From: Cyanosarcina radialis HA8281-LM2 | Lineage (GTDB): Bacteria > Cyanobacteriota > Cyanobacteriia > Cyanobacteriales > CCAP-1448 | Assembly: GCA_019359615.1 (NCBI GenBank) | Contig: JAHHHA010000044.1 | Location: forward strand, 1 to 49,138 | DNA: 49,138 bases | Direction of reading: 5' to 3' | Shown: piece after piece, positions 15,283 to 19,205 of the stretch | Position numbering within the stretch: the first letter of the stretch is position 1 | Layout: every line of letters begins with the position of its first letter | Notes under the pieces: generated by a model | The model's input: only the letters and a program-made list of their open reading frames with translations | The model's database searches: none | Told to the model about the DNA's origin: nothing | Program-made: the position numbers and the translations under genes

Positions 15283-15418
15283 TGCTTCGATCTAAAATCG
15301 ACGCTCGCTTCCAAACATCCAACTTCAGAGCGATCGTTTTGTAAGCTAAAGGTGTACGCTAACGTACAAATTATTAAGATAATTAAGTTGTACGGCAAAG
15401 TACATTTCCGGTCATGAA

Positions 15419-15634
15419 CCCCTAGCCGCCTCCGGCTGAGCTAGGGGCTTGCATCGGTCGGGGTGTAAGGGTAACTCATGACTAATGCCCACGCTAGCTA
15501 CTAACTGATACAGACTTCCGAGTGTTTCGCTAGCTCGGATTACCTCTAAGCCTGCTGACATCAGGCGCTTGCGGAAAGGACATTTTGTTAGTAGTGGGCA
15601 AAGCGACTTTCAACTTAGCAATAAGGATTATCTC
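15419..15634 (+). ncRNA. omegaRNA (HEARO-type) scaffold upstream of isrB
   Basis: About 216 nt of noncoding, highly structured sequence precede the isrB ORF if the intron is removed. Visible pairings are CCCCTAGC/GCTAGGGG (15419-15426/15440-15447); a long closing stem CTACTAAC (15498-15505) with GTTAGTAG (15587-15594), extended by TGCCCA (15486-15491) with TGGGCA (15595-15600); an inner hairpin TCCGAG/CTCGGA (15517-15522/15534-15539); and GCCTG/CAGGC (15550-15554/15562-15566). IscB/IsrB nucleases use an RNA encoded directly 5' of their ORF, whose 5' end carries the guide. Size and place fit that model. In this locus the guide would come from the flank just left of 15419. Confidence 0.75.
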
Positions 15635-16237
15635 GCGCGACCTGAAATGGTCGTTTAGAAAGGGAAGCCGACTTCCCTAGTGGTTTCACACCCACTACCC
15701 TCACGGAAAAGACTCAATGGAGTCCGGTCACGGTCAAGTAGGTAACGAAACAACCGGAATGCAGACCCCGAAAGTAGCCAAAGCTGGAAGCCTTATCTGG
15801 TCAGGAGCAAGAGGGAACAACCTCATGGTGAATACAAATGAATCATCAATTAAACTGCGTTATCCTTAAAAGAGCCAAAAGGCTGAAAGGCTCTAGCCAA
15901 AAGGCAAAGCAGATAGTTTTAACGTTGAGATATCGTTAAAAAGTGTGAATATAAACCCTGCCGCAGGAAAGATGACACCTAAAAGGGAATAACGACTAAA
16001 CGACACAACAGGGTAAGCCCTACAGAGTCTTAAGGAAGGTCGAAGCCTTAAGTAAGCAAACCGTAAGGAATGCCGAACTCTTTGGAGGGTAAAGGATGGA
16101 GTAAAAAGCGAATGTCCGTCTGTAATAGATGGAATAGGGGTTCAAGATTTGCCCCCGACCGAAAGGAATAGCAGACTTACTCTGGGTCTTATGAGAAAGA
16201 GACTAGATAAAAGAAACTTAATCTAAGGACAAGTTAG

Positions 16238-17902
16238 ATGGTGTATGCAAATACAACAAACGGACTAAAGAAACCGCTAGAAGATTGGAGTCAGATTAAT
16301 TGGCGACAAATCAACAAAGCGGTTAAGAATCTACGTCAGAGAATCTTTCTCGCAAGAAAACTTGGTAACTGGCGGAAGTTAAGAAACCTCCAAAAGTTAA
16401 TGCAAAGAAGCTACGCCAACCTATTATTATCGGTTCGGAAAATCACCCAGACCAATAAAGGAAAGCAGACGGCAGGAATTGACAAAGAGATTGTCAATAC
16501 CCCAGAAGCACGAGTGAAACTGGTAAACAACTGGAGCGGCGGAAATCAAAACCCCGCAAAACGAGTAATGATTCCCAAAGCCAACGGTAAGAAACGACCG
16601 CTCGGCATCCCAACCGTGCGTGACAGAATCGAACAGACAATAATAGTCAACTCACTAGAACCAGAATGGGAAGCTGTGTTTGAACCCAATTCCTATGGGT
16701 TCCGACCTGGCAAGAGTTGTCAAGACGCAATCGGACAAAGCTATAACAAGCTAAACTCCGGTATAGCTGGCGGACACACATGGGTTCTAGAAGCTGACAT
16801 TAAAGGCTTCTTTGATAACATTGCTCATGAATCCATCCTTAAACAATTAGACAACTTCCCCAAGAAAGAGCTAATCAAAGGATGGCTTAAAGCTGGGTTC
16901 ATCTTTGAAGGGAAATACAACCATACAGAGACGGGAACACCACAGGGCGGGGTGTGTTCACCCCTACTCGCCAATATAGGATTGCACGGATTAGAAACTT
17001 ACATAAAATCCACCAATTCAAAACTTGGTGTGGTTAGGTATGCCGATGACTTTATCGTCACAGCTAGGGACAAAGGAAGTCTCGAAAAAGCCCAAATCCA
17101 GATTCAGCAATGGCTATCAAATAGAGGACTTGAACTCAACGCAGAAAAGACGTTAATCACGTCAATGGAAGATGGTTTTGACTTTCTTGGATTCAACCAC
17201 CGCCATTACAATGGTAAACTCTTAATCAAACCATCCAAAAAGAAAGTCCTGGACTTTTGCAAACGGATAGGGAAAGAAACAAGAGAACTAAATGGAAAAG
17301 AACAAGAAGAACTAATCAGAAAACTAAATCCAATTCTGCGAGGTTTTGCTAACTACTACAAGGGGGTGGTCAGTAAAGAAACCTTTGGCTACATCTCATA
17401 CAGACTGTGGCAATACCTTTGGCGTTGGGCAAAGCGTAGACACCCCAACAAAAACTCAAAATGGGTGCGGAAACGTTACTTTAAAACCATAAATGGCAAT
17501 AAATGGACATTCTGTGCCACAATCACAGACCGCCAAGGGAAAGATAGAGACTTAACTCTCTACCCAATAGCGTACACACCCATCGAACGCCATGTAAAGG
17601 TCAAAGGGAAAGCGTCACCGGATGACCCCTCACTCAAAGAATACTGGGAAAAACGGCACCACAAACACGGAAAGAGCTATTGGGAACGCAACTCGCGCAA
17701 CTATAAAATTGCTCAAAACCAAGGCTGGAAATGTCCCATCTGTGGCGACCCACTATTCAATAATGAGGAAATAGAAACCCATCATATAGTTCCTGTGGCT
17801 CAAGGCGGACGAAACGACATCGAAAACCTACAGCATTTGCACAAAGCGTGCCACAAACAGGAACATTCAAAATCCAAGTTTCTTGCTCGAAATAAGGCTT
17901 GA
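16238..17902 (+). CDS. ltrA: Group II intron-encoded reverse transcriptase/maturase with HNH endonuclease
   Basis: The 554-aa protein supports splicing and retrohoming of the intron. The RT domain (about 60-330) has RPLGIPTVRDRI, SYGFRPGKSCQDAI, LEADIKGFFDNI, TGTPQGGVCSPLLANI and the catalytic YADD at 268-271. Domain X (maturase/thumb, about 340-440) contains LNPILRGFANYYK. The C-terminal DNA-binding and HNH domains (499-543) show CPICGDPLF, ETHHIVPVAQGG and CHKQEH, with both zinc Cys pairs. All catalytic residues are present, so the protein looks active. The start ATG at 16238 gives MVYANTTN; the stop overlaps the first base of domain V. Confidence 0.95.
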   Translation: MVYANTTNGLKKPLEDWSQINWRQINKAVKNLRQRIFLARKLGNWRKLRNLQKLMQRSYANLLLSVRKITQTNKGKQTAGIDKEIVNTPEARVKLVNNWSGGNQNPAKRVMIPKANGKKRPLGIPTVRDRIEQTIIVNSLEPEWEAVFEPNSYGFRPGKSCQDAIGQSYNKLNSGIAGGHTWVLEADIKGFFDNIAHESILKQLDNFPKKELIKGWLKAGFIFEGKYNHTETGTPQGGVCSPLLANIGLHGLETYIKSTNSKLGVVRYADDFIVTARDKGSLEKAQIQIQQWLSNRGLELNAEKTLITSMEDGFDFLGFNHRHYNGKLLIKPSKKKVLDFCKRIGKETRELNGKEQEELIRKLNPILRGFANYYKGVVSKETFGYISYRLWQYLWRWAKRRHPNKNSKWVRKRYFKTINGNKWTFCATITDRQGKDRDLTLYPIAYTPIERHVKVKGKASPDDPSLKEYWEKRHHKHGKSYWERNSRNYKIAQNQGWKCPICGDPLFNNEEIETHHIVPVAQGGRNDIENLQHLHKACHKQEHSKSKFLARNKA

Positions 17903-17934
17903 GCCGGATGATAGGAAACCGTCAAGTCCGGTTC
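17901..17934 (+). ncRNA. Group II intron domain V
   Basis: The 34-nt hairpin starts GAGCCGGATGA, has the GAAA-type loop region and closes with TCCGGTTC. It is the catalytic core of the ribozyme. Domain VI (about 17936-17975) follows with stem GAGCG/CGCTC and a likely bulged branch-point A in the AACCTTACCC strand. Confidence 0.85.
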
Positions 17935-17980
17935 TTAGGGGAGGGGAGAGCGGTGACGCTCGAACCTTACCCGACTAAAA

Positions 17981-19120
17981 ATGCGAGTTTCAGTTCTCAA
18001 TCCAGATGGTACGCCAGTAATGCCAACTAAGCCCAGTCGCGCGAGACGATGGCTAAAGGATGGCAAAGCCGTAATCGTGCATAATGACCTCAAGGTTTTC
18101 TGCATTCAATTGGTTGCTGAACCATCGGGACGTAAAACTCAAGACATGGTTGTCGGTATCGATCCTGGCAAGCTCTTTACAGGTATCGGCGTACAAACCA
18201 GTAAAGCAACGCTGTTTACGGCTCATCTAATTTTGCCTTTTAAGTCAATAACCAAAAAGATGAGTAGTCGCCGTCAGTTGAGGCGAACTCGACGCGGCAG
18301 AAGAATCAATCGAAAAGTAGCTTTTAAATCTCGCGCACACCGCCAGAAGCGATTCTCGAACCGCAGACAGGGTAAATTACCCCCATCAATTCGAGCTAAC
18401 AAGCAATTGGAACTGCGGGTAGTCAAAGAATTACTCAAGCTCTTTCCGATTTCTCATATTCGCTACGAAGTTATCAAGGCGAGAACAGAAAACGGCAAAG
18501 GCAAAGGTTTTTCGCCTGCTATGGTCGGACAAAAAATCATGCTGCAATGGTTGGAAAATTTGCGACCGACCACAACTCAATACGGTTGGCAAACATCTAT
18601 TCTCAGGCAACAACTTGGATTAGCCAAGGATAAAACTGACAAGTCTAAGCAATCTCCTGAGACTCACGCCAATGATGGCATTGCTTTAGCCGCCAGCCAC
18701 TTTATGAGTTTCGAGCAATTCCATACCGCCAATACTAGAGGTCATCATTGGGTGGGACAAGTCGAGGTTACTTCGTCACCATTTCGAGTTATTTCTCGTC
18801 CCCATATTTATCGTCGGCAGTTGCATTTTGAGAATCCAGATACGGGTGGAATGCGGAAGCGTAAAGGTGGAACTGTAACCCCGTTTGGGTTCCGCTCTGG
18901 GGATTTAGTAAAAGCTTCTAAGTCTGGAACAGTTATCACGGGTTGGATTGGTGGATTTACTAATAGCGAGAAAAGTAAAAATGTTAGCGTCTATGACCAC
19001 AATTGGAAGCAAATCGGACAGTATGCTTTGTCAAAACTCGAATTACTCCAGCGCAGTACAGGAATCTGTGTTGCGAAGATGAATTATTGTCCGACTCCGT
19101 ACCTACGTCGGACGCGCTAG
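17981..19120 (+). CDS. isrB: IsrB-type RNA-guided nickase-like nuclease
   Basis: The 379-aa protein starts with a PLMP domain (VLNPDGTPVMPTKPSRARRWL, residues 5-25). A split RuvC follows: RuvC-I VVGIDPG with Asp61; an Arg-rich bridge helix (96-128, RRQLRRTRRGRR; the RRXRR region); RuvC-II IRYEVIKA with Glu163; RuvC-III ETHANDGIALA with His229 and Asp232. Between RuvC-II and III there are only about 60 residues (YGWQTSILRQQLGLAKDKTDKSKQS) and no HNH. This marks IsrB rather than IscB. The C-terminal 130 residues match the small target-interaction domain. IsrB nicks DNA guided by the omegaRNA encoded 5' of it. The ORF is intact but its upstream RNA is separated by the group II intron; the start ATG lies 6 nt after the intron end. 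Confidence 0.88.
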   Translation: MRVSVLNPDGTPVMPTKPSRARRWLKDGKAVIVHNDLKVFCIQLVAEPSGRKTQDMVVGIDPGKLFTGIGVQTSKATLFTAHLILPFKSITKKMSSRRQLRRTRRGRRINRKVAFKSRAHRQKRFSNRRQGKLPPSIRANKQLELRVVKELLKLFPISHIRYEVIKARTENGKGKGFSPAMVGQKIMLQWLENLRPTTTQYGWQTSILRQQLGLAKDKTDKSKQSPETHANDGIALAASHFMSFEQFHTANTRGHHWVGQVEVTSSPFRVISRPHIYRRQLHFENPDTGGMRKRKGGTVTPFGFRSGDLVKASKSGTVITGWIGGFTNSEKSKNVSVYDHNWKQIGQYALSKLELLQRSTGICVAKMNYCPTPYLRRTR

Positions 19121-19125
19121 ACCGT

Positions 19126-19152
19126 CACTAGCCGCTGGCGCTGAGCGTAGGG
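19126..19152 (+). other. Right-end subterminal hairpin of the isrB element
   Basis: CTA-GC-CGCT (19128-19136) pairs with AGCG-TAG (19144-19150). The sequence mirrors the left-end hairpin at 15419-15447 in primary sequence (CTAGCCGC and GCTGAGC are shared). Its place 6 bp after the isrB stop supports a right end of IS200/IS605 type. Confidence 0.5.
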
Positions 19153-19205
19153 ACTCCCGCTTATTCCGTTGACGAAACTTCATAAGGTGGCCCCCTGGCG
19201 CTCCA

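Follow-up and report, generated by a model that had tools for sequence, protein, structure and literature searches.

A group II intron parts the omegaRNA from isrB in an IsrB element of Cyanosarcina radialis

What becomes of an IsrB (OMEGA) element when a group II intron stands between its omegaRNA and the isrB gene, and how did the intron come to be there? These questions are raised by a contig of Cyanosarcina radialis HA8281-LM2 (assembly GCA_019359615.1, contig JAHHHA010000044.1), the 49,138 nt of which, read on the forward strand, are called the window here. An omegaRNA scaffold (15411-15634), a group II intron (15635-17975) and isrB (17981-19120) follow each other on the plus strand, which carries all window features described below, and we confirm that a complete intron with an intact reverse transcriptase (RT)/maturase parts the omegaRNA from its gene. 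The original prediction placed the intron between the two; the interruption of the unit at a site exactly matched by the exon-binding sequences (EBS) of the intron was upheld, whereas the insertion point, as judged from the sequence, is inside the terminal hairpin of the omegaRNA and not at the boundary between RNA and gene. Very probably, a mobile group II intron retrohomed into this hairpin and so invaded the transcript that the omegaRNA and isrB of an IsrB element share.

The intron, the omegaRNA and the hairpin that they share

The limits first proposed for the 2341-nt intron (15635-17975) agree with the ends that are common to many homologous introns (e.g. L035, L041 and L055), with GCGCGACC at 15635 and CCCGAC at 17975, and with the Rfam group II model RF00029, which matches 17899-17975 with 53.3 bits (cutoff 40). 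In more distant homologues the start is GTGCG, or the last bases are GAT or GCT. Group II introns usually begin with GTGYG; the window intron differs from this with GCGCG, a 5' end that its near relatives have too. The RF00029 match and the fold of 17890-17975 (z = -4.4 for domains V-VI) place domain V at 17901-17934, where it had been predicted, and domain VI at 17938-17972, in which the A at 17969 is the candidate branch point, judged by its distance of 7 nt from the end of the intron. The RT/maturase, likewise intact as first described, is encoded by an uninterrupted open reading frame (ORF) of 554 amino acids (16238-17902) with RVT_1 (PF00078), RVT_N (PF13655), GIIM (PF08388) and HNH (PF01844) domains, and it matches TIGR04416 with 343 bits (cutoff 300).

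The contacts of the intron with its upstream exon are complete. EBS1 (GAGATA, 15927-15932), which forms the loop of a hairpin of 8 bp recognized by eye, pairs at 6/6 positions with the intron-binding sequence IBS1 (TATCTC, 15629-15634), and EBS2 (ATCCTTA, 15862-15868) pairs at 7/7 positions with IBS2 (TAAGGAT, 15622-15628); all 13 bases TAAGGATTATCTC are paired. These pairings, noticed earlier in the window alone, are now supported by covariation in a set of 25 introns, comprising the window intron and 24 homologues after removal of the duplicate L054. EBS1/IBS1 pairs at 136 of 150 positions (shuffled mean 63) and EBS2/IBS2, scored in the better of two registers with the shuffles treated likewise, at 140 of 175 (shuffled mean 88); in both cases none of 2000 shuffles reached the observed value. 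EBS1 pairing is weak in two homologues, L045 (3/6) and L057 (2/6). Across the 25 introns EBS1 and EBS2 change along with the flanking exon, and the exon contacts are real; we infer that the intron homed to its present site.

The RNA upstream of the intron was identified with a profile built from 18 relatives, the window excluded. It matches 15411-15634 over its full length (118.4 bits, E = 2.5e-35), so that this scaffold of the HEARO type begins at about 15411 instead of the predicted 15419. The match stops exactly at the last exon-1 base before the intron, and with the intron disregarded the omegaRNA lies directly 5' of the isrB ORF. A presumed guide segment would occupy 15391-15410, a position taken from the published 20-nt 5' guide (PMC9581776). 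A structure of 48 pairs, scored on 19 sequences, is paired in 95.9% of cells, and cells with double changes number 234 versus 66 in shuffles and 17 to 31 with partners slid; the RNAalifold part of this structure came from the same alignment, which favours the structure, and the pseudoknot and terminal hairpin were added by eye. The pseudoknot pair of columns 129/209 is G-C in the window row alone and C-G in the other 18 rows. By these comparisons the upstream RNA is a real omegaRNA. The alternative, an intron of the ordinary kind in a 5' leader with no working omegaRNA before it, would be consistent with the Rfam HEARO model RF02033, which scores 25.9 bits on the window against a cutoff of 83, and with the weak single-sequence fold of the omegaRNA (z = -1.9). 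The HEARO RNA of the original prediction was recovered by the window-free profile and not, at cutoff, by the Rfam model. However, four other profile-positive omegaRNA loci (L283, L255, L269 and L017, three of them picked for odd leaders) also lack an RF02033 match at cutoff, for which reason an absence of HEARO was rejected, and the full-length profile match and the covarying structure, which includes the window row, make this alternative highly improbable.

The isrB gene (17981-19120) encodes a protein of 379 amino acids with a match to PF14239 (RRXRR, E = 3.7e-49) and no HNH match; the NCBIfam IscB model covers its first half only, below cutoff. The RuvC residues D61, E163, H229 and D232 are invariant in 23 aligned IsrB sequences, window included, in accordance with the intact RuvC residues first described. 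A second IsrB in the same genome (L002 1501-2289; G000:C10:63341-64129), with an omegaRNA profile score of 106.8 bits, has an in-frame deletion of ca. 90 residues with loss of the HxxD RuvC residues, and is possibly a nuclease-dead IsrB.

The intron enters after GGATTATCTC (15625-15634), GGA-TTATC-TC^ in the window, which is recognized by its leader motif and takes in the 5' arm of the terminal hairpin, its loop and the greater part of its 3' arm. Entry at this point splits the hairpin and moves the start codon away from the Shine-Dalgarno sequence, and the 13 exon bases read by EBS1 and EBS2 cover the hairpin. Exon 2 contributes the leader TAAAA (17976-17980, read directly from the sequence). 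Of 123 loci, counted with duplicates, 109 have the motif GGN-TTAT[C/A]-NC, or its close form GGATTGTCTC, just before isrB, and its two N positions pair as A-T in 55, G-C in 32 and T-A in 22 cases. Variants occur in eight loci (GAGAATTATCTT in six and GAGATTATCTC in two), and six of the 123 have no form of the motif (L017, L104, L107, L116, L126, L140). The leaders of L287 and L309 have a longer GGAA/TTCC version of the hairpin, beyond the three pair types, and L081, L255, L269 and L102 have insertions of tens to ca. 265 nt, repeat-like or other, between omegaRNA core and terminal hairpin.

In the published IsrB structure the PLMP domain contacts SL7 and SL8; nicking was lowered by truncation of SL7/8 and not of SL8 alone, and the Shine-Dalgarno sequence resides in SL7 (PMC9581776). 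The cyanobacterial terminal hairpin follows the nexus pseudoknot and adjoins the ORF, and from this position we call it SL7. The IsrB elements of Desulfovirgula thermocuniculi and Crocosphaera watsonii resemble that of the window in their upstream omegaRNA, type of protein and terminal hairpin with Shine-Dalgarno sequence; the main text of that paper mentions group II introns for analogy and in no other role (PMC9581776).

A second intron in the same hairpin

The original prediction proposed that isrB loci with and without introns at this junction be compared. An empty site was found in L005, the IsrB of which (78% identical) is the closest among the matches listed and the leader of which reads uninterrupted through AATAGGATTATCTC-CTAAATG (AATAGGATTATCTCCTAAATG). 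The arrangement is, however, not a one-off. In Dolichospermum sp. DET69 (G153; its plasmid pDol_DET69_01 is CP070234.1), the omegaRNA end AAGGATTA is followed by an intron of 2183 nt and then by TCTCTTAATG of isrB. Hairpin and order of omegaRNA, intron and isrB are the same as in the window, whereas the intron is unrelated (maturases 33% identical), enters after GGATTA, 4 nt upstream of the window site, and is present in several copies, among them one tandem pair.

The RF00029 match in the DET69 intron ends one base before the assigned 3' end. A 3' end is given by 42 of 43 homologue rows, some of which are the DET69 copies themselves and two a duplicate pair of genome G288; the last base is C in all 42, and 39 fit CGACTC[TA]A[CA]C. 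At six empty sites, of which G127 has four and G288 and G153 itself one each, the sequence runs without a gap precisely across the splice junction. A scan for EBS through every alignment window of the first 720 nt, in 44 introns that differ in their 5' exons, gave an EBS1, TAGTCC, that pairs with GGATTA (mean of 5.39 of 6 pairs versus 2.53 for mismatched partners), and EBS2 was found too.

The DET69 genome has at least six IsrB loci (40 of 136 candidates scored), of which four carry an intron at the hairpin (L283, L329, L380 and L392), one has an intact junction and an intron in the ORF (L401), and one is empty. Between the introns of three of these hairpin loci there are 0 or 3 differences in 2183 bases (none between L329 and L380), and between the loci exon 2 and isrB are 91.1, 78.8 and 78.2% identical. 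Near-identical introns in such diverged copies imply that the intron moved among IsrB copies independently of them. On the plasmid, L329 (1492-5857) holds two identical 2183-nt introns in tandem between omegaRNA and isrB, and at L388 another recent copy occupies a site that is unrelated and ends in AGAAGGACTC. Spread of the DET69 intron by transposition of IsrB or by gene conversion would fit the mobility of IsrB elements themselves and the well-conserved omegaRNA that two DET69 copies share immediately before the intron. Against joint spread, L329 and L380 have the same intron in all 2183 bases but isrB regions that are 78% identical, and conversion tracts would need to end exactly at the splice sites, which leaves this route improbable. 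These comparisons provide strong evidence that the DET69 intron homed into the hairpin, with retrohoming as the simplest account. That two unrelated introns lie 4 nt apart in one hairpin is suggestive of a favoured site, and only suggestive because there are two lineages.

The intron of L392 is 93% identical and the first 94 nt of exon 2 are gone (L392 3917-3920), a loss that may be the outcome of recombination between two intron sites. In L401 the intron lies inside isrB (1508), after ca. 92 nt of ORF, and L392 and L401 form a possible pair of recombining intron sites. Partial omegaRNA matches (query 57-183 or 57-190) at G153:C1 ca. 1030466, 1085800 and 2469988, with no isrB match listed beside them, are possible stand-alone omegaRNAs. 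The two intron types also meet outside IsrB leaders: L041 (G280:C2:214259-218739) is a twintron in which a DET69-type intron has taken up a relative of the window intron, with parts 1-509 and 510-2179 of the DET69-type intron on either side of a window-type maturase.

Frequency of leader introns and known precedents

For a survey of IsrB leaders, 248 loci were reduced to 197 distinct leaders by removal of L107, L311 and L321 (no N-terminal match), 46 leader duplicates, and L112 and L323 (less than 150 nt); one of the searches that supplied the loci gave a shortened list and scored few candidates per genome (six in most), and a few matches were left out, e.g. in G144 and G081. The exact 13-nt target of the window intron occurs in 25 of the 197 leaders, and 96 match it at 11 or more of the 13 positions. 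With the window excluded, introns were found in two (L273 and L289), both from Dolichospermum sp. DET69; L380 and L392 were found later, outside this survey. The omegaRNA profile matches within 60 nt of the ORF in 174 leaders and at 65-284 nt in 19, a gap too small for a complete RT-bearing intron (the Rfam scan among these 19 covered L255, L269 and L017). The leaders of L287 and L309 have no profile match but a motif of the GGAATTATCTTCC type adjoining the ORF. The exact junction pattern of the window was found in the window only among 386 genomes of the phylum. A looser pattern gave five matches in 388 genomes of the order, two of them real (both in G153) and three without omegaRNA or IsrB; a reversed-pattern control gave nine among the matches listed, which puts the looser scan near chance level, and the variants GGGTTATACC and GGTTTATCAC fall outside the pattern. 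A single-protein scan of genome contigs (19 stretches) found no relative. Apparent intron-split ORFs in L162 and L163 are repeats of the IsrB N-terminus.

Near relatives of the window intron occupy many unrelated sites, and among L035-L073 only L064, the window's own copy, has an IsrB match. An intron family devoted to IsrB was rejected, as near relatives of both the window and the DET69 intron lie at many unrelated sites. The rarity of leader introns, both surveyed cases of which come from one genome, the unrelated sites of close relatives and the internally deleted second IsrB of the C. radialis genome would suit a neutral passenger, i.e. an intron that landed by chance in a decaying element and the splicing of which is irrelevant to IsrB. 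Yet IsrB, the intron protein and both RNAs appear intact in the window, the EBS match is 13/13, an unrelated intron reached the same hairpin and insertion there is repeated in DET69; we find a passenger rather unlikely and retain retrohoming into the hairpin as our reading.

The original prediction was not aware of a described intron at this junction. Indeed, none of the titles and abstracts listed from the open literature searched, which excludes most subscription-journal papers and preprints, reports an intron at an IsrB or IscB junction. By contrast, group II introns have already been described in an element of the IS200 family. The nearest precedent is Thermosynechococcus elongatus, where three F4 group II introns lie at a conserved site of the IS200-family element ISEL1 (PMC2882425), as in the window a conserved site of a cyanobacterial mobile element. 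In G352, by inference T. elongatus, we found 28 RF00029 matches, and intron L186, whose 5' exon is common with L184 and L187, interrupts tnpB at about codon 2 if GTG is the start. For tnpB, the guide RNA is found at the opposite end, away from the start codon. Unlike the window case, the host gene is tnpB and no omegaRNA end beside the start codon is interrupted; ISEL1 was rejected as an IsrB element, as no IsrB match was found in G352 and one intron touches tnpB. IStrons also combine a self-splicing intron with an insertion element, but theirs is a group I intron that lets the insertion splice from host RNA, whereas the window intron is a separately mobile invader (PMC4227781). The RF00029 match identifies the latter as group II, and the window element is not an IStron. 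A further paper deals with introns in the vicinity of integrons, where an IS200/605 element is also present (PMC7923331).

Splicing and the function of the IsrB element

In the precursor RNA the hairpin bases would be held by EBS1 and EBS2, and the hairpin could not form, the two states being mutually exclusive. Unspliced RNA would lack the complete terminal hairpin and would have 2.3 kb between the exon-1 Shine-Dalgarno sequence and the start codon of isrB; inspection by eye of the bases just before the ATG in unspliced RNA showed nothing that resembles a Shine-Dalgarno sequence. Splicing would rebuild the hairpin and join the ribosome-binding site to the start codon, with the predicted junction TTATCTC^TAAAA (AAGGATTATCTC^TAAAAATG) placing AAGGA 12 nt upstream of the ATG, and the Shine-Dalgarno sequence would serve isrB only after splicing. 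As hairpin and Shine-Dalgarno sequence would be restored only by splicing, without excision the omegaRNA would stay incomplete and IsrB would not be translated efficiently, and the anatomy of the locus indicates that the intron probably has to be excised before the IsrB element works. The intron, in turn, would gain a landing site that is conserved, non-essential and multicopy.

Several points weigh against this account. Splicing, the omegaRNA ends and IsrB translation at the window are predictions, and some weak translation of IsrB from unspliced RNA might occur. Exon 2 begins with T, so that the closing pair of the spliced hairpin would be G-U and not G-C. The window intron has a single match in its own genome and its own recent mobility is thus not evident; the name SL7 rests on position and not on a structure; and the RF02033 score mentioned above is low. 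A chimeric assembly of the contig seems unlikely.

A further possibility, which we put forward tentatively and consider unlikely, is that the hairpin is a recurrent homing niche of group II introns and also a switch. IsrB bound to the omegaRNA would block splicing and, with it, its own further synthesis, whereas free transcript would be spliced, because EBS1 and EBS2 need the same bases as the hairpin bound by IsrB. If true, the intron would be a feedback gate on an RNA-guided nuclease.

For the biology of IsrB elements, the locus points to one hairpin that would be part of the guide-RNA scaffold and would bind both the protein and the ribosome, and at which two mobile RNA machines meet. The occupied, tandem and empty sites at diverged element copies in Dolichospermum sp. 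DET69 would provide a natural experiment on the choice of safe, multicopy landing sites, and competition between intron splicing and guide-RNA function becomes testable.

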